A stretch of 64,000 nt of DNA from Actinomycetota bacterium (GTDB lineage Bacteria; Actinomycetota; Geothermincolia; Geothermincolales; RBG-13-55-18), in NCBI GenBank assembly GCA_030019255.1, contig JASEFK010000009.1:1-64000 (forward strand), read 5' to 3'. Each line of letters begins with the position of its first letter. Within the stretch, counting starts at the first letter, position 1. The notes under the pieces were generated by a model. The model was not told the origin of the DNA. It did not search any database and saw only the letters and a program-made list of their open reading frames with translations. The translations under genes were made by a program, and so were the position numbers. Below are positions 37,577-49,175 of the stretch, in pieces.

Positions 37577-38135
37577 TTCCACGACCTCCTTGTGTCCCGC
37601 CAACATTATATACGGAGAGGAGGCCCGGAGGATCAACGGGAAGGGAGCATGGGGGCGTGGAACGGAAGGGAAGATGGATATCAGCCGGAGCGATACAGGA
37701 ATATGAATGTGCACCGAAAATATAGGAAGAGGGATATGCAGCGAAACGAGGTGACCGCTGTATTTCATGGTTATCAATGTTTACGAACGCGTGGTTACAA
37801 GTAATATCATGGTTAAAAAGGCGGGATTACGAAGGCGTGGTCACGAGGAATCGCGGCGCGAGGGGAAGAACAGCGTGTGACAATGGTCCGGTACCGGAAG
37901 CGCGGTCACGGGTTCCCTGGGGGTGGGAGGGCTTGGCCGCTTGCTAAGGATGACCGTTCCCCAGGCTCTACCTTCCCGGGGGCTCCTCCCCGGTGTCGGG
38001 ACCGGAGGCGAGGTGAAAGCGATGAACCTTGACGGGAACCGGAAGGCCCCGACATCACTGGTATGCGCGTTAAGGCCTGATGACAAGGCGTAAATACGGA
38101 TACCCCTCGGCCCGATCGATGGCGAGGTGCGGTTG
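37577..38135. other. Intergenic region with short degenerate repeats
   Basis: About 560 bases without a supportable gene. Between 37785 and 37910 a motif like GCGTGGTTAC/GCGCGGTCACG recurs at least three times in degenerate form, perhaps worn repeats or binding sites. The left end carries the apgM ribosome site. No terminator was found. Confidence 0.35.
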
Positions 38136-39359
38136 ATGGCTGGAAGACTCAAAACGTTGTGGGGCAGGTGGTGGGTGGTGGTGGTCGTCCTGGCCGCCCT
38201 GGCCGCCTCCGTGCCCATCCAGTACATGGTCCGCCGGGAGGTGGTGACGGGCCTGGCTTCCGAACACGCCCACTCCCACGCCCATGAGCACGAGGAAGAT
38301 CACGAACACGAGGAAGGACACGTCCACGCCGAAGAGGAGGAACACGGCGAGGAAGGGCACCCGGCATCGGATATCCCGCTGCACACCAACCTGATCAGCA
38401 ACTACAGCTTCGAGGTGGGCACGAGGGAGACTATCTGGGGGTGGGCCAAGAAGGGAGAGGAGCGGGGCGCGCTGGTCTTCAGGGACCGGCAACGTTCCTA
38501 CAAGGGGTTCGCCAGCGCGGCGGTCAGTTCACAGGAAAGCGACTTCGTGGATGCCGGTTGGTACACGATGCTGGGACAGACGCCCGTGGGCCACGACGCG
38601 GTCTTCAGGGGCCAGGTGCGCACCGAGGGTTTGGAGGGGCAGGCATACCTGGGGATTATCGTCCGGGGCGCCGGTGAGGAAGAGGCTAAGCTGCGCACCC
38701 TGGTGGTTGCCTACTCCGACCGGGGGGAGGGAACCACGGGGTGGACGCCGGTGGAGCTGCGCTGCTACGTGCCCCTGGAGGCCCGCGAGGTGTGGCTGGA
38801 ATGCGGGATGTACGGGAGAGGCAGGGCCTGGTTCGACGACGTGTCCCTGGAGGTGGAGGAGAGGGAGGAATATCCTCCGGCGGGGGTGAACCTCCTCGGC
38901 AATCCCTCCTTCGAGGAAGGGGCGAGGTACTGGCACCTATTCTTCTCCGGGACGGACAGGCCCCCCGTTTACGGCTCCGAACCCGGCTGGTCAGGGAAGG
39001 AACGCTCCCTGCGGGTAGAAAACCAGCCGGGCGCCGACCCCTCGGCCCATACCGGGTTTTACCAGACGGTGCCGGGGCTTTCGGGGCGAAAGGGGTCCCT
39101 GCTCCTGCGGGGTAGATTACGCGCCCAGGCCGTGTCCGGCAGGGTATGGGTGGACGCGGTAGCCTTCGGGGTTTCCGGCTCCTTGGGATTCATGGCCTCG
39201 CGGGAACTGGTCGGAAGCACGGGCTGGGAGGAATTCGAGGCCCGGATTCCCCTGGACGGAGGTGCGGACAGCCTCATGGTCCGCTTGAACGTGGAGGGGG
39301 CGGGGGCTCTGGTGGCGGACGACCTGGGGGCGGTGTTCATCCCCTCCGGGGGCAGTTGA
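38136..39359 (+). CDS. Membrane-anchored surface protein with His/Glu-rich segment and two CBM-like beta domains
   Basis: A 407-residue protein. A tryptophan-flanked helix (about residues 9-28) anchors or exports it. Residues about 40-75 are an extreme His/Glu-rich run (EHAHSHAHEHEEDHEHEEGH and on), a likely metal-binding tail outside the membrane. Two similar beta domains follow, each opening with N-L-x-x-N-x-S-F-E (NLISNYSFEVG near 85, NLLGNPSFEEG near 250), which resembles CBM4/9-type or discoidin-like jelly rolls. GCGAGGT lies before the ATG and a GTG three codons earlier is possible. No function is known. Zn/Ni/Cu binding and surface glycan or polymer contact are inferences. Confidence 0.6.
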   Translation: MAGRLKTLWGRWWVVVVVLAALAASVPIQYMVRREVVTGLASEHAHSHAHEHEEDHEHEEGHVHAEEEEHGEEGHPASDIPLHTNLISNYSFEVGTRETIWGWAKKGEERGALVFRDRQRSYKGFASAAVSSQESDFVDAGWYTMLGQTPVGHDAVFRGQVRTEGLEGQAYLGIIVRGAGEEEAKLRTLVVAYSDRGEGTTGWTPVELRCYVPLEAREVWLECGMYGRGRAWFDDVSLEVEEREEYPPAGVNLLGNPSFEEGARYWHLFFSGTDRPPVYGSEPGWSGKERSLRVENQPGADPSAHTGFYQTVPGLSGRKGSLLLRGRLRAQAVSGRVWVDAVAFGVSGSLGFMASRELVGSTGWEEFEARIPLDGGADSLMVRLNVEGAGALVADDLGAVFIPSGGS

Positions 39360-39642: not shown

Positions 39643-40644
39643 TCAGCGCCGCACTGCGCTCACGTTCTCCAGGTTGGAGAGGTCGCGGGGCGTACCCAGG
39701 GCGATGAGCAGGTCCCCGGCGTCCAGGCGGGTGTCCTTGTCCGGGCTGGTGTTGAACTCGCCGTCGGCCGCCTTGCGCACGGCCACGATGAGGGCCCCGG
39801 TACGAACCCGGATGTCCATCTCCCCGATGGTCCTGCCCGCCAGCTCGGATCCCTCCTCCACCACCAGTTCCTCCAGGCGGTAGTTCAGGGAGATGCCGTG
39901 GGCCACCAGGTCCAGGTAGTCGAAGACGCTCGGTTTCAAAAGGAAGGTGGCCATGCGCCTCCCGCTCAAGGCGTAGGGGGAGATGACCCGGTCGGCGCCG
40001 GCGTAGAGTAGCTTGTCCACCGAGTCCGGGCTCACGCAGCGCGTCACGATGGTCACCTCCCGGTTGAGGCTCCTCGCCGAGAGGGTGGTGAAGAGGTTGT
40101 CGGCGTCGTTCTCCAGGGCGCACACCACCCCCCGGGCCCTCTCCACCCCGGCGTTGAGGAGCGCTTCCGTCGAGGTAGCGTCACCCTCCAGGCAGAGGTA
40201 ACCCCTGTCCTGGGCCACGGCCAGCCGTTCCGGATCCTTGTCGATGACCACGAAATCGGCCCCTGCCTCGGCCAGGGTCTCGCACACCACTTCCCCCACG
40301 CGCCCGAACCCGCAGACCACGTGGTGGTCCCGCAGCTTCTTTATCCTGAGATCCATCCTTCTCCTCCCGAAGATCTCCCGCAAGGCCTCGCCGAAGGTGT
40401 AGCTTATCAGGCCGGATATTATGAAGAAGAGGCTGAAAACCCCGGTGAATATGACCAGGATGGTGAAATACATTCCCGCCTGGGACAGGGGACGGACCTC
40501 GCGGAAGCCCACCGTGGAGATGGTGATCACTGTCATGTAGAGAGCTTCCGTGTAGCTCATGTGTTCTATGGCCATGTACCCCACCGGGGCCAGGGCCAGG
40601 AGCAGGACCAGGAGGGACACGGAAAAGAAGAGCCTGCGGTGCAT
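39643..40644 (-). CDS. Two-TM potassium channel with TrkA-N and TrkA-C (RCK) domains
   Basis: A 333-residue channel subunit. Helix 1 (about 5-25) is followed by the pore segment MTVITISTVGFREV, whose TVGF replaces the more common TVGYG filter, then helix 2 (about 60-85). HHVVCGFGRVGEVV starts the Rossmann-type RCK/TrkA-N domain, with VVIDKDPE at its second strand, and a TrkA-C domain ends the protein. Four subunits would form a ligand-gated K+ channel in the cytoplasmic membrane. The ATG lies two bases after the stop of the MBL gene, indicating an operon. Confidence 0.88.
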   Translation of the reverse strand: MHRRLFFSVSLLVLLLALAPVGYMAIEHMSYTEALYMTVITISTVGFREVRPLSQAGMYFTILVIFTGVFSLFFIISGLISYTFGEALREIFGRRRMDLRIKKLRDHHVVCGFGRVGEVVCETLAEAGADFVVIDKDPERLAVAQDRGYLCLEGDATSTEALLNAGVERARGVVCALENDADNLFTTLSARSLNREVTIVTRCVSPDSVDKLLYAGADRVISPYALSGRRMATFLLKPSVFDYLDLVAHGISLNYRLEELVVEEGSELAGRTIGEMDIRVRTGALIVAVRKAADGEFNTSPDKDTRLDAGDLLIALGTPRDLSNLENVSAVRR

Positions 40645-40646
40645 GA

Positions 40647-41276
40647 TCAGATCCCTATGAGGAAGGGGTTGGTGCGCTTCTCCCAGCCCACCACCGTGGA
40701 ATCCAGGTGGCCGGGAAGGATGCGGGTATCGCCGGGCAGGGTGAAGACCTTTTCCTTGACCGAACGCAGCAAGGTTTGCATGGAGCCGCCGGGGAAGTCG
40801 GTGCGGCCGATGGAACCCCTGAACACTAGGTCCCCGCCGAAGAGCACGCCGTCGGTGAGGAAGCACACGCTCCCCTCCGAGTGCCCCGGGGTGTGCAGCA
40901 CCTTGAACTTCATCCCGCCAAGCTCCAGTTCCTGGCCGTCCTCCAGGGGCAGGAACTCCTCCGGGAGATCCAGGTCGTCCAGCCCCAGCATCCTCAGGAA
41001 GAGGGGAGGGATGGACTTCACCATTTCCGCGTCCGCCGGGTGCATGTAGGCAGGCGCCCCGGTGGCGTCCACGATTTCCTTGAGGCCTATGAGGTGATCC
41101 GGGTGCCCGTGGGTAAGCAGCACGGCTTCCAGCTCCAGGCCGTGGTCCTCGAGGTATTTCAACACCTGCGAAGGGGAGACACCGGCGTCGATGAGCACCG
41201 CCTTCTTCTCCTCCTCGTTGACTGCCAGGTAAGTATTGCTGCCGAAAGAATAGTCGGTAAAGGTGATTATCTCCAC
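40647..41276 (-). CDS. MBL-fold metallo-hydrolase (glyoxalase II-like)
   Basis: A 209-residue zinc hydrolase. LLTHGHPDHLIGL is the metal-binding THxHxDH motif, LHTPGHSEGSV and FGGDLVFRGSIGRTD supply the further ligands, and ILPGHLDSTVVG ends the site. The layout is that of glyoxalase II-like proteins of about 210 residues. The GTG start (MEIITFTDYSFGSN) is preceded by GAGGAGG at six nt, better than the upstream GTG at 41297. It is translated immediately before the channel gene. The substrate is unknown. Confidence 0.85.
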   Translation of the reverse strand: MEIITFTDYSFGSNTYLAVNEEEKKAVLIDAGVSPSQVLKYLEDHGLELEAVLLTHGHPDHLIGLKEIVDATGAPAYMHPADAEMVKSIPPLFLRMLGLDDLDLPEEFLPLEDGQELELGGMKFKVLHTPGHSEGSVCFLTDGVLFGGDLVFRGSIGRTDFPGGSMQTLLRSVKEKVFTLPGDTRILPGHLDSTVVGWEKRTNPFLIGI

Positions 41277-41628
41277 GGAAAACCTCCTCTTCTTCACCCC
41301 GCCCCCGCCGGACCCCGAAGTCGCCTCGCTAAGCGTCCGGGTCCAAGCCGACCGGGCTAGGATTACTTCCGCGGCAGGGGTACAGCCCCTCCGCCCGCAT
41401 ACGGTGCTCCCTCACGTCTCGTCAAACCTTATGGAAACCTGATGGAATTATAAAACACCTCCGAGCGGCGTGTAATAAACAAGGGGGTTGTACTTCGATA
41501 TTTGGCTGCTCCGCCCAAGAAAAATGAAATTTTCCAGTCGTTTCGGGAACCGAACATTGAAAATAAGACCCCCTTACCTTCTTGTGGCAGGATACCGAAA
41601 GATTATTAAAGGAGAAGGAGGTTCTGTT
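41277..41628. other. Divergent intergenic region upstream of the receiver-DHp gene
   Basis: No gene is supported. The right half is AT-rich (about 41430-41620) and ends in GGAGAAGGAGG, the ribosome site for the TTG-started gene. A frame is open from 41488 but has no family resemblance before 41629. Confidence 0.4.
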
Positions 41629-42390
41629 TTGACGCCGGTAGTTCTGTACATCGACGACAGCGGGGTGGAGCGCAGGATAGTGCAGCGGCTCCTTGAGGAC
41701 GACGGTTTCCGGGTTTTTACCGCCGAGAAAGCGGAGGAAGGCCTGGAGATGGCGGCAAGGGTGCGCCCCGACATGATACTCCTGGACCTCCACCTGGAGG
41801 GGACGGAGGGCTGCCAGCTGGCGGAGCGCCTGCGGGAGATGCCCGGACTGGAAAAGGTTCCCATAGTGGCGATCAGCGCTTCCCTGAAGGATGAGGAGCG
41901 GCCGGAGGTACTCGAGCGTTTCGACGGTTACGTCCAGAAGCCGGTGGACGTGGATCTCTTCCCCCGCATGGTGCGGGAGTTCATGTGGCAGGGCGCAAGG
42001 GAAGGGCATCCGCCGGTCCAGGGCCTCCCGTCCGGGAAGGGAATTGCCGTCAGCCCATCCGGTGGGGCGGCGGTTAGCCGGGGTTCGGCAACGCAGCCGG
42101 GCCGGGAGGGGGAAAGAGAAGGAGAACGCTCTCCCGACGCTGAAACCCGGGAGCTCCTGGAAGCTCTGGAAAAGGTGCGCTCGGTCATGTCCCATGACCT
42201 GCGAACCCCGCTAACGGTGATGATCTCCTACGCCAGCACGGTAAGCCGGGGAAAGGTGGGCGAGCTGAACGAGCGCCAGAAGGAGATGCTGGACCTGGTG
42301 GTCCAGCATGGCTTCCAGATGGACGCCCAGATAGCGGAGCTGGTGAAACTGGCCAGGGATACCCTGCGGCGATTCGGCTATAAACCTTAG
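41629..42390 (+). CDS. Response-regulator receiver fused to a histidine-kinase DHp domain, no ATPase domain
   Basis: A 253-residue signalling protein. Residues 1-125 are a receiver (DD at 9-10, phosphoacceptor Asp53 in LLDLHLEG, and QKPVD with the conserved Lys near 107). A linker of about 45 residues rich in Gly/Ser/Pro follows. Residues about 170-245 are a HisKA/DHp hairpin with the H-box MSHDLRTPLTV (His189). The protein stops there, and the ATP-binding HATPase_c domain is absent and is not encoded downstream. The TTG start is supported by GGAGG seven nt upstream. It could act as a phosphotransfer hub like Spo0B, or its kinase domain may have been lost. Its stop overlaps the convergent gene by 4 bases. 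Confidence 0.8.
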   Translation: MTPVVLYIDDSGVERRIVQRLLEDDGFRVFTAEKAEEGLEMAARVRPDMILLDLHLEGTEGCQLAERLREMPGLEKVPIVAISASLKDEERPEVLERFDGYVQKPVDVDLFPRMVREFMWQGAREGHPPVQGLPSGKGIAVSPSGGAAVSRGSATQPGREGEREGERSPDAETRELLEALEKVRSVMSHDLRTPLTVMISYASTVSRGKVGELNERQKEMLDLVVQHGFQMDAQIAELVKLARDTLRRFGYKP

Positions 42391-44390
42391 ACCTTCAAAC
42401 CAGCCTCGTAGCCCTCCTGGATGGCCTCGATGGCCTTGCGCGCTTCCCGGGCGTCCCCGACCAGGTGAACTTCCAGTCCCGAATCCTTGAGCTCCTCGTA
42501 GAGGCGGTTCTCCGGGCAGCTTCCCACGGCGATGATCACCGTGTCCGCGGGTATGGACTCCTCCTTTCCCTCCACCTCCACCACCACTCGATCCGGCTCG
42601 ATACGCCTGGCGGAGGCGTTGTTCCGAACCTGGATGCCCAGGTTGCGCATGTCCTGGAGGATGGTCCAGCGGGTGGAGATGCCCACATCCCGGCACACCT
42701 TGTCCAGCATCTCCACCACCGTGACCCGCTTGATGCCCCGGCTGCAAAGTTCCCGGAGGGTCTCCACGTCCTCCCCGTTGTTCATGAAGAGGAAGAAAAG
42801 GGTCTCCGGGGAGATGGTGCCAATGCTGGCCACGTACATGGCCGTCTCCGACCCCACGGCTCCGCCCCCGATGATCACCACGTCCCGACCCTCGGGGTCC
42901 CGCTTTCCTTCCAGGATATCCCAGGCCATGACCACGTGGGGCTGGTCGATGCCCGGGATGCTGGGGACCGCCTGGCGCGCCCCCGTGGCCACCACCACCG
43001 ACTCGAAGTCCTCCTCGCGGAGGAGGTCGGCGGTGACCTCCGTCTCCAGGCGCAGCTCCACTCCGGCGTTATCCAGCTGGGTTTCCAGGTCCTCGATGGC
43101 CGTCCAGAACTCCTCCCTGCCCGGGGGAACGGCGGCCAGGTTGAGCTGTCCTCCCAGGTAATCCTTCCTTTCGAACAGGGTAACCTGGTGGCCCCGCTCG
43201 GCGGCGGTCAGGGCGGCTTTCATCCCCGCCGGTCCGCCTCCCACCACGGCCACCTTGCGGGGCCGGGCCGCCGGCTCCACCCTGTATTCCAGCTCTCGCC
43301 CCGCCCGGGGATTGAGCATGCAGGTCACCGGCTGGAGGTAGAAGACGTGGTCGAAGCATCCCTGGTTGCAGCCAATGCAGTGAGTGATCTCCTCATACCT
43401 GCCCTCGGACGCTTTCAGGGCCAGGTAGGGATCGGCGATAAGGGCGCGGGCCATGCCCGTGAGGTCGGCCATGCCCATGCGCAGTATCTCGTCGGCCACG
43501 AAGACGTCGTTGATGCGATTGCAGGCGATAACCGGCACGCCCACCTTCTCCTTGACGTGGGCCGCCAGGTAGGCCAGGCCCCCGCGGGGGACGGACATGG
43601 GGAGCTGGGGCACCCGGGTCTCGTGCCATCCCCCGGTGACGTTAATGAGGTCCACGCCGTGCTTTTCCAGCTCGGCGGCGAAGAGCGCCCATTCGCGGTT
43701 GGTATTTCCGCCCTCCATGTAGTCGTGCCCGGCGATGCGGAAGCCGACGACGAAATCGGGCCCCACCGCCTCCCGCACCGCATCGGCCACCTCCAGGCCG
43801 AAGCGCATGCGGTTCTCCCAGGAACCCCCGTACTCGTCGGTGCGCAGGTTGGTCACCGGGGAGAGGAACTGGCAGATGAGGTAGCCGGTGCAGGCCAGGA
43901 CCTCCACCATGTCGTAACCCGCTTCCTTGACCCGGCGCGCCGCGTCGGCATAAGCCCGGATGGTCCTCTGGATGTCCTCCCGGGTCATCTCCCTGGGGGT
44001 TTCCCGGGTGAAGCGGGAGGCCACCGGGCTGGGGGCCAGGGCCTGCCTCCCCTCCATGGAGATGGAATGGGAATAGCGCCCGGCGTGGTAGAGCTGGCAG
44101 GCGGCCGCGGCGCCGTGCTTCTTGATGGCCTGGGCGAGGATACGGTGCCCCTCCACGCAGGAATCGTCCCGCAGGTCTAGCATCCAGTAGGCCCCGGCGT
44201 AATCGTCGATGATGGCTCCTCCCACGATGATCAGCCCGGTGCCGCCGCGGGCCCTTTCCTCGTAGAAGGCCACGATGCGGTCGTTCACCCGTCCGTCGGG
44301 GGTGAAGTTGAGGTGCATGGCGGTCATTACGATACGGTTCCTGAGCTCCAGGTCCTTGATGCGCAGGGGGGTCAAGAGTTTTTTCAGCAT
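42387..44390 (-). CDS. OYE-family NADH:flavin oxidoreductase with FeS and FAD domains (2,4-dienoyl-CoA reductase-like)
   Basis: A 667-residue enzyme with the FadH/trimethylamine-dehydrogenase layout. An N-terminal FMN TIM barrel (LLTPLRIKDLELRNRIVMTA, and YDMVEVLACTGYLICQFLSP) is followed by a [4Fe-4S] motif CIGCNQGCFDHVFYLQPVTC (about 350). An FAD/NAD domain (VAVVGGGPAGMKAALTA near 395 and VVIIGGGAVGSETAMYVAS near 505) ends it. It reduces enoyl-CoA or other activated double bonds using NAD(P)H. AAGGAGTGAAG precedes the ATG. It is divergent from a CoA-transferase gene, which suggests an acyl-CoA pathway. Confidence 0.88.
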   Translation of the reverse strand: MLKKLLTPLRIKDLELRNRIVMTAMHLNFTPDGRVNDRIVAFYEERARGGTGLIIVGGAIIDDYAGAYWMLDLRDDSCVEGHRILAQAIKKHGAAAACQLYHAGRYSHSISMEGRQALAPSPVASRFTRETPREMTREDIQRTIRAYADAARRVKEAGYDMVEVLACTGYLICQFLSPVTNLRTDEYGGSWENRMRFGLEVADAVREAVGPDFVVGFRIAGHDYMEGGNTNREWALFAAELEKHGVDLINVTGGWHETRVPQLPMSVPRGGLAYLAAHVKEKVGVPVIACNRINDVFVADEILRMGMADLTGMARALIADPYLALKASEGRYEEITHCIGCNQGCFDHVFYLQPVTCMLNPRAGRELEYRVEPAARPRKVAVVGGGPAGMKAALTAAERGHQVTLFERKDYLGGQLNLAAVPPGREEFWTAIEDLETQLDNAGVELRLETEVTADLLREEDFESVVVATGARQAVPSIPGIDQPHVVMAWDILEGKRDPEGRDVVIIGGGAVGSETAMYVASIGTISPETLFFLFMNNGEDVETLRELCSRGIKRVTVVEMLDKVCRDVGISTRWTILQDMRNLGIQVRNNASARRIEPDRVVVEVEGKEESIPADTVIIAVGSCPENRLYEELKDSGLEVHLVGDAREARKAIEAIQEGYEAGLKV

Positions 44391-44865
44391 GGTCTTCACT
44401 CCTTCGACGCGTCGTGTCCCGCCGCTCCGCCGGCGGAGGCTCGGCTGGCTTTTTATCCTGTTGTCATACACGGCAGATCGTTGCGCCTCGCTTGGGAACT
44501 CCCTTAAGCGTAGACCGGCTGCCCGTCTTCCCGCCGCCATGGCGACGTATGCCGCTACCCTATTCTATGGTTACCGGCGAACGGTGGAAACGGCGATCCC
44601 CGGGATTTGCCGGCGGTCGAGCCATGAGGCCGCAGGGAGTTCCCATCCAACGCGGGTGGGAAGGACCAAATGGAGAACCGGCCGCATCCGGGTCCGCGGA
44701 CCTCGTGTCCGTATGGTGGCGCCGGATCCCCGGGTGCCGGACCCGGTGGGATCTCCTTTCTCCCTCCCTGCGGGCGGGGTCGCGCCCCGCCTTCCGCACT
44801 TTCCACCGGAAAAGGTGTGTTATAGTATAGCAGAATTCGCGGGAAGGGCAGTAGCGAAGGGGGAA
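44391..44865. other. Divergent intergenic region between the reductase and CoA-transferase genes
   Basis: About 475 bases with no supportable gene. TATAGTATAG at 44821-44830 is a -10-like element for the rightward gene with no good -35. Frames crossing it on both strands are extensions of the flanking genes' openings. Confidence 0.35.
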
Positions 44866-46668
44866 ATGCGAGTGGAAGGCATGTTCGGCATCTTCTCCGA
44901 CCGGGTGGCGGAGGCCCTCTCGGCGGCTGAAAGCGAGACCTCCGAAAACAAGGTCATGGATCTCCACCGGGCGGTAGGGGAACTGGTCAGGCCGGGGATG
45001 CACCTCCACCTGGGGCACGCCTACATGCGCCCCAATGCCGCTCTCTACGAGATCTGCCGCCGCTTCTGGAGAAAGGATCCCGGGTTCACCGTCTCCTCGC
45101 TGGGCTTCATAGCCAACATGGTCCTCCTGGTCCACGGGGGGCTGGCCCGCAAGTTGATAACCACCTTCTGCGGCGATTCCTACCCCTTTCCGGGGCCCAA
45201 CCGAGTATACCAGGAGGCATACCGGGAGGGCTGGCTGGAGATAGAGAACTGGACGGTTCTCACCCTTCCGCAGCGGTTGATGGCCGGCGCCATGGGCGTG
45301 GAATGGATGCCCACTCACTCCCTCCTGGGGAGCTCCATGGAGGAGGAGAACGCCGGGGACTTCCGGGTCGTGGAGATGCCCGACGGAAGCCGGGTGGGCA
45401 TGGTGCGTGCCCTCCGCCCGGACCTCACCCTCATCCACGCCTGGGCCGCGGACCGGGCGGGCAACGTCCTGCTCACGCCCCCCTACGCGGAAAACGTCTT
45501 CGCCGCCTTCGCCGCCCGGGAGGGAGTCCTGGCGACCGTGGAGCAGGTGGTCCCCACTTCCTTCCTGCGCCGCTACTCCCATTTCGTGAAGGTTCCAGGT
45601 TACCTGGTGCGCGCGGTCTGTCCGGCTCCCATGGGGGTGCACCCCTCCGGGGCATCCAACCAGGGGATAAAGGAGTTCGACGCCTACGCCGAGGACGAGG
45701 AGTTCATGCTCCGGCTGCGGGAGGCCTGCCGTTCCGAGGAAACGCTGGAGGAATGGGTGCGGGAATGGCTCCTGGGGGTGGAATCCCACGAACATTACCT
45801 GGCCAAGCTGGGACACGAGCGGATATGGTACCTGAAGGGCAGGGCGGCCGGAGATTCCTGGGTCTCCGAGTTGGCCGACCGCGTCACCTCCATCCCCGAT
45901 ACGGAGGAATATACCCCGGTGGAGATGATGGTGGTGGAGGCGGCGCGGCTGCTGCGCCGGCGCGTGCGCGAAGCCGGTTACCGGACCATACTGGCCGGCA
46001 TCGGCGCCTCCAACCTGGCCGCCTGGAAGGCCTGGTACGACCTCCGGAAGGAGGGAGTCCCGGTGGAGCTCATGGCCGAGGTCGGCTTCTATGGGTACAC
46101 GCCCCGACCCGCCGACCCCTTCATTTTCAACTTCCGCAACATCCCCACCTGCGTCATGCTTACCGACATCCTCACCGTCCTGGGTTCCATGGTGGGAGCG
46201 GCAAGCAGCCGGGCCATAGGCGCCCTGGGGGCCGGGCAGGTGGACCGCTTCGGAAACATCAACTCCACCAAGATCCCCGAGCTGAAGCTCTTCCTGGTCG
46301 GCTCGGGGGGAGCCTGCGACGTGGCGCTGGGAGCCGGGGAGGTCCTGGTGACCGTGGCCCAGGACCGGTTGCGCACTCCGGAAAGGGTCTCCTACGTCAC
46401 CGCGCCCGGGGAAAGGGTGAAAACCGTGGTCACCACGGAGGGGGTTTTCCAGAAGCCGCCCGGGGAGGAGGAACTGGTGCTCACCGCCTATTTCCCCCAC
46501 GTGGCCGCGGACGGGAGGGAAGCCCTGCAGGTCATCGGTTCCCACTGCGGGTGGGAGCTGCGGGCCGCGTCTTCCCTGAGGCGCGTCGAACCACCCACCC
46601 GCGAGGAGCTCTACGACGTGCGCATCTTCGACCCCCGCCGCTATTTCCTCGAGGAAGCACCCCGATAA
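44866..46668 (+). CDS. Fused alpha-beta family I CoA-transferase-like protein (GctAB/IpdAB-like)
   Basis: A 600-residue protein that appears to join the two subunits of a glutaconate-type CoA-transferase. The first half (to about 330) has the alpha-type opening VRPGMHLHLGHAYMRPNAAL and SLGFIANMVLLVHGGLARKL. The second half has TILAGIGASNLAAWKAWYDL, then LMAEVGFYGY and LVGSGGACDVALGAGEV. Glu405 in MAEVGFYG aligns with the catalytic glutamate of the 'SENG' motif, but IpdB-type hydrolases of this fold act differently, so the reaction is uncertain. The ATG at MRVEGMFGIF follows a GAAGGGGGAA run. Its divergent neighbour is an enoyl-reductase-like enzyme. Confidence 0.75.
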   Translation: MRVEGMFGIFSDRVAEALSAAESETSENKVMDLHRAVGELVRPGMHLHLGHAYMRPNAALYEICRRFWRKDPGFTVSSLGFIANMVLLVHGGLARKLITTFCGDSYPFPGPNRVYQEAYREGWLEIENWTVLTLPQRLMAGAMGVEWMPTHSLLGSSMEEENAGDFRVVEMPDGSRVGMVRALRPDLTLIHAWAADRAGNVLLTPPYAENVFAAFAAREGVLATVEQVVPTSFLRRYSHFVKVPGYLVRAVCPAPMGVHPSGASNQGIKEFDAYAEDEEFMLRLREACRSEETLEEWVREWLLGVESHEHYLAKLGHERIWYLKGRAAGDSWVSELADRVTSIPDTEEYTPVEMMVVEAARLLRRRVREAGYRTILAGIGASNLAAWKAWYDLRKEGVPVELMAEVGFYGYTPRPADPFIFNFRNIPTCVMLTDILTVLGSMVGAASSRAIGALGAGQVDRFGNINSTKIPELKLFLVGSGGACDVALGAGEVLVTVAQDRLRTPERVSYVTAPGERVKTVVTTEGVFQKPPGEEELVLTAYFPHVAADGREALQVIGSHCGWELRAASSLRRVEPPTREELYDVRIFDPRRYFLEEAPR

Positions 46669-47153: not shown

Positions 47154-47589
47154 CTTCTCTTCCCCCTTTCTTGAACACCCCGGTATCCCTTCGCTCCCGG
47201 TCCGCAGCCCTTTGCCGCTCGCGGCCCGCGGTTCCCCGATTCTTGTCCCTTTATCCCCGGGGATTTATATTTATTATTCCCTATCCATCGAACTCGAAAC
47301 GCCCGGTCCATCCCCTTGCAGTCTCTCGTCCCTCCCCCTGGTGACCGTGTCGCTCCAGGACGATCATGACGCCGTCCTATCCCGTTTCCGTCCTTTATGC
47401 CCGTCTTCCCCTTGGGGCGCCCGGTCGTTATTCCCGCTTCCGGGAGGCGCGCAGTGGCAGGGCGCCCGGGTTCCGCGGCAGGGCCGGGAGTCGTGGGGAT
47501 TGGGAGAGGGGGAAAGACGGTTCTTGGACGGCTGGGACTGGTTTGGAGCTCGAAGCGTCAGTCCGTTGATATACTTTTCGCCGCCCGGA
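47154..47589. other. Intergenic region upstream of the 46-residue gene
   Basis: No gene is supported. A perfect palindrome ATCCCCGGGGAT lies at 47253-47264. Immediately beside it, on the minus strand, TATAAA (47264-47269) and TTCGAT (47287-47292) are 17 nt apart and could form a weak promoter for the small gene, with the palindrome placed as an operator just downstream. Confidence 0.35.
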
Positions 47590-48528
47590 TCAGGTTCCCG
47601 AGACCAGGCGGAATATCCCTTCCCCCAGGTCGATTATCTCCTCGGCGGCCTCCACGCCTTGTCTCCACCTCTCGGGAATACCCTCCAGTCCGTTGAAGGC
47701 GCCGCTGACGGCCCCGGCCACCGCCCCCGTGGTGTCGGCGTCCAGCCCTCCTTCGACGGCGCGGGATACCGTTTCCTCGAAGTCGCCCGGAGTGCGCAGA
47801 AAGCAGAAGAAGGCGCTGGCCACCGTCTCCACCACGTAGCCGCTGGTCCCCAGTCGGGCCAGGGCTTCATCGGGTTCCATGTCCTTGGCCAGGAAATCCT
47901 TTGCCAGCAGGAGGCGCTCGGACACCGCGCAGGGGCCGATGAAATCCACCGTCTCCGCAATCAGCGAGGAGGGGTCCAGGTCCCCCCGTGCCGCGCGTGC
48001 CACGGCGAAAGCCACCGCCTGGGCCCCGGCCACCGCCTCCGGGTTGGCGTGGGTGATCATGGATACCTCCCGCACGTCCCGGCGCAGTTTCTCCAGGTCC
48101 AGGCAGTCGACCAGGCCCACCGGGGCGATGCGCATGGCCGCCCCGTTTCCCGCCGCCATCTCGCCCCGGGCCCCACTTTCCTGGGGGTGGACCCCGGCGC
48201 GCAGCCTCTGGATGGATTCGTAGGTGGAACCTCCGATTCCCCGCCAGTCACCGGATTCGAACCAGGCAACGAACTTGCGGGCCGTGTCTTCCACGTTCAC
48301 CCCTTTCCGCTCCAGGATGCTGCGGGCGTGACAGAGCATCATCTTGGTGTCGTCGGTCCACTGGCCCGCTTTGAGCATCCTCCAGGGGGCGTCCAAGAAG
48401 TCTCGTACCCGGCCCACGCGCTTTCTTATGGCCGAGGCCCTCATGCCCTCCAGGGGCATACCCAGGGCGTCGCCCACGGCCAGGCCCAGAAGGCAGCCGG
48501 AGAAGCGGGATGGATCCAACTCGGGCAT
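47590..48528 (-). CDS. ADP-ribosylglycohydrolase family protein (DraG-like)
   Basis: A 312-residue hydrolase of the DraG/ARH family, which removes ADP-ribose from proteins or other acceptors using a di-magnesium site. The metal-binding motifs are GCLLGLAVGDALGMPLEG at the start, GQWTDDTKMML, GNGAAMRIAPVGL, ITHANPEAVAGAQAVA and GGLDADTTGAVAGAVSGA near the end. AAGGAGCC lies before the ATG. No nitrogenase or ADP-ribosyltransferase gene is nearby, so the target is unknown. Confidence 0.9.
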   Translation of the reverse strand: MPELDPSRFSGCLLGLAVGDALGMPLEGMRASAIRKRVGRVRDFLDAPWRMLKAGQWTDDTKMMLCHARSILERKGVNVEDTARKFVAWFESGDWRGIGGSTYESIQRLRAGVHPQESGARGEMAAGNGAAMRIAPVGLVDCLDLEKLRRDVREVSMITHANPEAVAGAQAVAFAVARAARGDLDPSSLIAETVDFIGPCAVSERLLLAKDFLAKDMEPDEALARLGTSGYVVETVASAFFCFLRTPGDFEETVSRAVEGGLDADTTGAVAGAVSGAFNGLEGIPERWRQGVEAAEEIIDLGEGIFRLVSGT

Positions 48529-49175
48529 GCAGGCGGCTCCTTTACCCTCGGCACCGTTCGAATCCCTTACGGGTTAAGGATAGCAGAAGATCGTTTCCTG
48601 TCGCCCGCAGCGCTCCGTTCAAGGTCGAGAAGAGGCCTTTGCGCGAATCGTGGCCGGCGTGTCCCCGTCACCTTCCCTTTCTCCTGTCCATCCACAAGGC
48701 CGGGTTTCGTAAACCTTCTTTCAACCGATGGCCGGAAGGCCGGCTGTGCCGGCCCTGATTGAAGTACCCGCCGCTGGTATCCGGGGGGTCGACCGGGAGT
48801 GAAGGAACGATTAACGGACCTTCCTTTCCTGGAGAGCGGGGTGATCGGGAGGGAAGGAAGAGCGATGGGCGGAAGGGAAGCCGTGAAGCCCCCGGGGCTT
48901 ATCGGCGATCCTTCTTTGGCCCACCCATGAAGCTCGTTCCATCCTTGCATTCTGGGTGGACCGCCGGGCTCGTGAAGGACTCCCGTGGACCCCTCACAAC
49001 CCGCCCACTGGCCTTGAAAATACTCTTGACGAGGACAAGGATTATGGGAAGCCCCCGCGGAATAAGGGACTAGGAGGGTGGGAAAGTTCGCGCCTTCGGT
49101 CGCCGGCCGGGGGGAGAATGACTGCTCCACGACAAACCGCGTGAATCCCGGGCCGGTTGGTGTGGTGGGCCGGGG
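48529..49175. other. Long non-coding stretch
   Basis: About 650 bases between divergent genes with no supportable gene. Frames that are open here have no ribosome site and atypical composition. I see no RNA gene, terminator or clear promoter. Confidence 0.4.

Follow-up and report, generated by a model that had tools for sequence, protein, structure and literature searches.

What can a protein do that joins a receiver domain to the histidine-bearing hairpin of a histidine kinase and then ends, before any ATPase domain? The question is raised by a gene at positions 41629–42390 on the forward strand of a 64,000-nucleotide stretch of an Actinomycetota genome (the window; contig JASEFK010000009.1 of assembly GCA_030019255.1). 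Its open reading frame (ORF), Pfam domains and orthologues define a protein of 253 residues, here called REC-DHp after its receiver (REC) and DHp domains, read from a TTG start with a likely ribosome-binding site, AAGGAGG (41615–41621, forward strand, from reading of the sequence), 7 bases upstream. A first-pass annotation had likened the product to a phosphotransfer intermediate rather than a kinase. This is still the best-supported reading and an unproven one, predicted from sequence only: we think it an even bet that REC-DHp is a conserved non-kinase phosphotransfer protein in which a receiver is linked flexibly to a dimerising DHp domain. The literature is cited by PMC number.

Both domains are clear. 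Pfam Response_reg matches residues 5–111 (41641–41961; E 1.8e-18) and HisKA residues 185–243 (E 2.7e-11), each above the gathering cut-off, and beyond these the protein has no Pfam match, HATPase included, at E 0.001; NCBIfam gives only sub-cut-off matches among the 25 families listed. The receiver, supported by its modelled fold, has the expected D/E9, D10, D53, S83 and K104, with Asp53 (41785–41787) as predicted phospho-acceptor. The DHp (HisKA) hairpin, supported by Pfam and by the model, comprises residues 171–206 and 215–248 (42139–42372), and its H-box (SHDLRTPL) holds His189 (42193–42195), so that the receiver aspartate and the DHp histidine named in the first-pass annotation are both in place. 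The single-chain AlphaFold2 model shows the receiver with confidence and a hairpin of two helices with these bounds, separated by a disordered linker (residues 125–166, 42001–42126) with predicted local distance difference test (pLDDT) scores below 50; modelled alone, the hairpin reaches a mean pLDDT of 91.3. The C-terminus lies 5 residues past DHp helix 2. In Foldseek searches all 50 matches listed for the full model are receivers or response regulators, and the DHp domain alone has no match at E <=0.001, its best being the ERS1 DHp domain at 0.078. A DHp profile of the family is closest, among solved sequences, to HK853-type DHp domains (E about 3e-8), the best of them from Thermotoga maritima HK853; we take these chains to be HK853 from their entry codes and from titles in the Foldseek listing. 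HK853 is a full kinase with its own ATPase domain. The DHp hairpin of REC-DHp would be expected to dimerise, as a four-helix bundle.

How should such a protein be classed? HATPase_c, which a histidine kinase carries on the same chain, has no Pfam match in the window protein, in any of 15 orthologous proteins aligned as A1, or in the DHp-only copy of genome G017 that A1 leaves out, which supports the claim that REC-DHp by itself is no kinase. With HisKA present and HATPase absent, it falls under the definition of a "possible incomplete histidine kinase", a class named in PMC5847659. No A1 protein has a Pfam match to Hpt (PF01627) or, at E 0.01, to Spo0B, and there is no C-terminal domain of the kind Spo0B would have; the Spo0B Pfam domains identify Spo0B poorly (PMC6136694).

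Is the ATPase domain missing by design or by accident? A FadH/OYE-type flavin oxidoreductase gene (42387–44540, reverse strand; Pfam, NCBIfam), which has no part in the mechanism proposed below, converges on the REC-DHp gene, and the two stops overlap by 4 bases. Opposite it, two forward-strand ORFs are without a Pfam match at E 0.1, and the three forward frames past the REC-DHp stop, inspected by eye only, show no ATPase domain. The protein ends just after DHp helix 2, as first proposed, on a strand whose continuation is taken up by the convergent gene. Homologues were sought in 59 genomes, from genus to phylum, and by profile in 18 genomes of the order; a match in G043 that covered only the receiver was dropped. 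The gene is present in 16 of the 18 order genomes (14 of 15 in its own family, two of three elsewhere). Fourteen of these copies, from seven genera, are complete REC-DHp genes, the copy in G002 is cut by a contig end, and that in G017 encodes DHp only. Across A1 the Pfam counts are 15/15 for HisKA, 14/15 for Response_reg (the exception being the copy cut by the contig end) and 0/15 for HATPase. With the DHp profile, a search of the 13 genomes of the class that lie outside the order gave no match at E 1e-12. Across the phylum, with at most 7 candidates scored per genome, the REC-DHp profile finds matches at E 1e-25 in 25 of 396 genomes: the 16 known carriers and nine in which only the receiver part matches. 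The architecture is therefore old, of order-level age, and the family is confined to one order as far as searched; with the gene so conserved across genomes, a chance origin of the observation is implausible.

Selection tells the same story for both domains. Ratios of nonsynonymous to synonymous substitution rates (dN/dS) were computed for 9 close pairs drawn from 12 sequences, two of them, both involving G002, with a partial receiver, and with linker bounds set by the script. They range from 0.15 to 0.34 in the receiver and from 0.085 to 0.26 in DHp, and show purifying selection acting on both; DHp has the lower ratio in 6 of 9 pairs. The linker is weakly constrained, at 0.25–0.97 in six pairs and saturated in three. 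The gene as a whole diverges faster than its neighbours, with 72% identity between the window and G003 against 89–94% for the metallo-beta-lactamase (MBL), channel and oxidoreductase proteins beside it. Of 33 invariant columns in A1, 26 lie in DHp, a biased count, since columns 1–77 of the receiver are missing from the G002 row and cannot be scored as invariant. Among the rows that reach them, Asp10 and Asp53 are each kept in 14/14, and Ser83 and Lys104 in 15/15; His189 and Asp190 are invariant in all 16 rows of a second alignment, A2. The phosphatase position (T193) is Thr in 14 of those rows and Ser in two. HisKA proteins are reported to require the acidic residue after the histidine as kinases but not as phosphatases, and to require the Thr or Asn four residues after the histidine as phosphatases (PMC3510030). 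The invariant Asp190 beside a Thr that varies to Ser therefore weakly favours phosphorylation of the histidine in REC-DHp over mere dephosphorylation.

The exceptional copy in G017 bears on which half of the protein matters. It encodes 104 residues from a GTG start (locus L067, 1684–1998; HisKA E 1.8e-13) and sits between the MBL-fold gene and the oxidoreductase gene, the gap to the former being too short to hold a receiver. This copy shows that DHp can persist without an attached receiver, and suggests that DHp is the core of the protein.

With both phospho-acceptors conserved, phosphate exchange is the simplest role, and without an ATPase domain the protein cannot phosphorylate itself. Asp53 of the receiver would be phosphorylated by another histidine kinase, or DHp would exchange phosphate with a phosphorylated receiver; the DHp dimer would then hand phosphate from His189 to the aspartate of a further response regulator. 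Overall, one chain would combine Spo0F- and Spo0B-like roles. That the protein is phosphorylated at all, the direction of transfer, its partners and its output are all inferred. Receiver features that separate intermediate from terminal receivers (PMC9981736) are not decisive: the FATGUY motif is absent by eye, with Ala81-x-Ser83-Ala84 in its place, and Tyr or Phe occupies switch position 101. A more tentative extension, which we think rather unlikely, is that such a single-chain relay is the only non-CheA histidine phosphotransfer protein in the order and links kinases to many single-domain regulators. In favour of the phosphotransfer reading, a search of the carrier's own genome at E 0.1 yielded Hpt matches in two CheA-like frames only, so no separate Hpt protein was found. 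The genome also gave 31 other receiver-type matches, 10 of them in open frames of <=190 residues that are candidate single-domain regulators.

Several observations weigh against a phosphotransfer role. The invariant Asp190 would be expected just as much if a separate ATPase domain phosphorylated the histidine in trans, and the Thr that 14 of 16 rows have at the phosphatase position is compatible with a phosphatase role. The gene is dispensable: it is absent from G001 and G015, where its neighbours lie close together (MBL-to-oxidoreductase gaps of about 185 and 55 bases, in sequence free of N), and the receiver is dispensable in G017. The gene is also an orphan, as the 64-kb window has no HATPase, other HisKA or other receiver match.

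Could the missing ATPase domain be supplied by another protein? In this alternative, which we consider unlikely, REC-DHp is half of a split or heterodimeric kinase, for example one that joins a dimer with a complete histidine kinase; its DHp is phosphorylated in trans by the other protein's ATPase and its receiver modulates the reaction. The kinase-linked Asp190 (PMC3510030) is invariant, EnvZ is functional with HisKA and HATPase on separate chains, and 711 of 42417 HisKA proteins have been proposed as possible split bifunctional kinases (PMC3591291). Against this, no HATPase match lies in the window. When HisKA and HATPase matches are paired by eye, 31 of its 34 HisKA domains have an HATPase match alongside, and REC-DHp is the only one of the 34 that ends after DHp with no C-terminal ATPase-like region. 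The two other HisKA genes without a paired HATPase (contigs C5 and C15) encode full-length proteins whose C-terminal regions seem degenerate: HATPase_c has a match at E 0.013 in one and none at E 0.1 in the other. These histidine-kinase-like genes (L087 4102–5376 on C5, after a gene with intact HisKA and HATPase, and L088 1782–2759 on C15) are possible pseudokinases in their own right. Fifteen of the 46 genomic HATPase matches have no adjacent HisKA, two of them CheA-like. Of these 15, the three in the shortest frames were read, an ATPase fused to a winged helix-turn-helix domain, an HATPase_c_2 (RsbW-like) gene that by eye adjoins an apparent STAS gene, and another ATPase, and none is an obvious dedicated partner. 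An HATPase_c domain fused to a winged-helix domain (L124 883–1623, contig C4) is an unusual-looking combination.

Somewhat less probable still is a phosphatase or phosphate sink, in which DHp would remove phosphate from a response regulator under the control of the receiver. The HDxxT motif is that of bifunctional HisKA proteins (motif role in PMC3510030), and HATPase-less proteins with a motif of this type have been counted as possibly bifunctional (PMC3591291). Against this, it is the phosphatase residue that changes to Ser in two of 16 rows, and the kinase-linked Asp190 that never varies. DHp phosphatase activity also usually gains from an ATPase domain.

A dimeric response regulator, whose DHp only dimerises or docks and whose receiver is the switch, seems to us improbable. 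A role in dimerisation and protein-protein interaction has been suggested for AF_1472-like proteins in an archaeal census (PMC5847659), and the receiver active-site residues of REC-DHp are as well conserved as those of DHp. A protein that only dimerised, however, would have no need of His189, Asp190 and the H-box, yet these vary little or not at all here, and G017 retains the DHp without the receiver.

A recent truncation or frameshift of an ordinary hybrid kinase, or a pseudogene of one, for which the absence of the gene from two of 18 order genomes and of the receiver from a third could speak, is rejected as very improbable: 14 complete copies in seven genera share the short architecture, both domains are under purifying selection in the 9 pairs, no HATPase is encoded nearby, and the ATPase-bearing orthologue that the first-pass annotation had said would betray a frameshift here was sought, and found nowhere, among 18 genomes of the order, 31 of the class and 396 of the phylum, sets that overlap.

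The gene sits in a conserved neighbourhood. Window positions 39643–46668 hold a block of a potassium channel, an MBL-fold hydrolase (40647–41297, reverse strand, divergent from REC-DHp; Pfam), the FadH/OYE oxidoreductase and a CoA-transferase-like protein (595 residues from a chosen start). From channel to CoA-transferase the block is largely syntenic in the family and partly so in two further families of the order. Of 15 fetched loci, 14 have the MBL gene near the REC-DHp gene, and the remaining one is cut by a contig end. The oxidoreductase is likewise present in 14 of 15, the exception being G004, where the stretch holds undetermined bases. The channel and MBL genes of G016 differ in order and orientation, and G001 and G015 keep the oxidoreductase without REC-DHp. 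Because synteny extends over the whole block, and the neighbours can be present where the gene is not, no functional tie to the MBL, channel, oxidoreductase or CoA-transferase genes is claimed. Two further ORFs of the window have no Pfam or NCBIfam match: 38127–39359, where an apparent signal sequence precedes a His/Glu-rich stretch and which has homologues at the same place in 5 of 15 fetched loci, and 47212–48762, with such homologues in 11 of 15.

How unusual is a stand-alone REC-DHp protein? The first-pass description of it as uncommon is right only in degree. In SMART, 1556 of 42417 HisKA proteins (3.66%) lack HATPase, and 1.7% also carry an HE/DxxN/T motif (PMC3591291); P2CS keeps a class for such proteins (PMC2716373), and archaeal cases with a receiver and HisKA are described. 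That HATPase-less class is heterogeneous and defined by absence, whereas REC-DHp is a single orthologous family. As HATPase-less HisKA proteins have been described already, the family is an addition to a known group: a new, clade-restricted case of little-studied proteins. Its nearest counterparts in domain content are the archaeal REC/PAS/GAF/HisKA proteins of the AF_1472 type, which likewise combine receiver and HisKA in one chain without HATPase (PMC5847659). Compared by domains only, the REC-DHp family is simpler, with REC joined directly to DHp, and differs in belonging to Actinomycetota and in its conserved locus.

The mechanistic likeness is to phosphorelays. Spo0B keeps a degenerate ATPase-like domain. 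In the Bacillus sporulation phosphorelay, Spo0F and Spo0B likewise pair an output-less receiver with a histidine phosphotransferase, which hands phosphate on to a further receiver (PMC6136694); PMC5898713 classes Spo0B among degenerated histidine kinases. These are two proteins, whereas REC-DHp is one chain with an ordinary Pfam HisKA hairpin and no C-terminal domain. PhyT of the Sphingomonas general stress response and ChpT of Caulobacter are also kinase-derived histidine phosphotransferases, and transfer from SdrG~P to PhyT to PhyR runs from receiver to DHp to receiver (PMC5898713), as in the relay proposed here. PhyT differs in being membrane-anchored, with an HRxxN-type DHp, a degenerate ATPase domain and a receiver on a separate protein.

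A search of the open-licence literature turned up no report of experiments on a REC-DHp protein lacking an ATPase domain, which is not proof that none exists, and according to PMC5847659 no archaeal protein of the HATPase-less class had been studied experimentally. The archaeal counterparts are mostly misannotated as kinases (PMC5847659), and automatic annotation would probably label REC-DHp a histidine or hybrid kinase too, an activity impossible for it on its own. Small, soluble and conserved, and with a natural DHp-only relative, the family would be a convenient system in which to follow how pieces of kinases become relay proteins.
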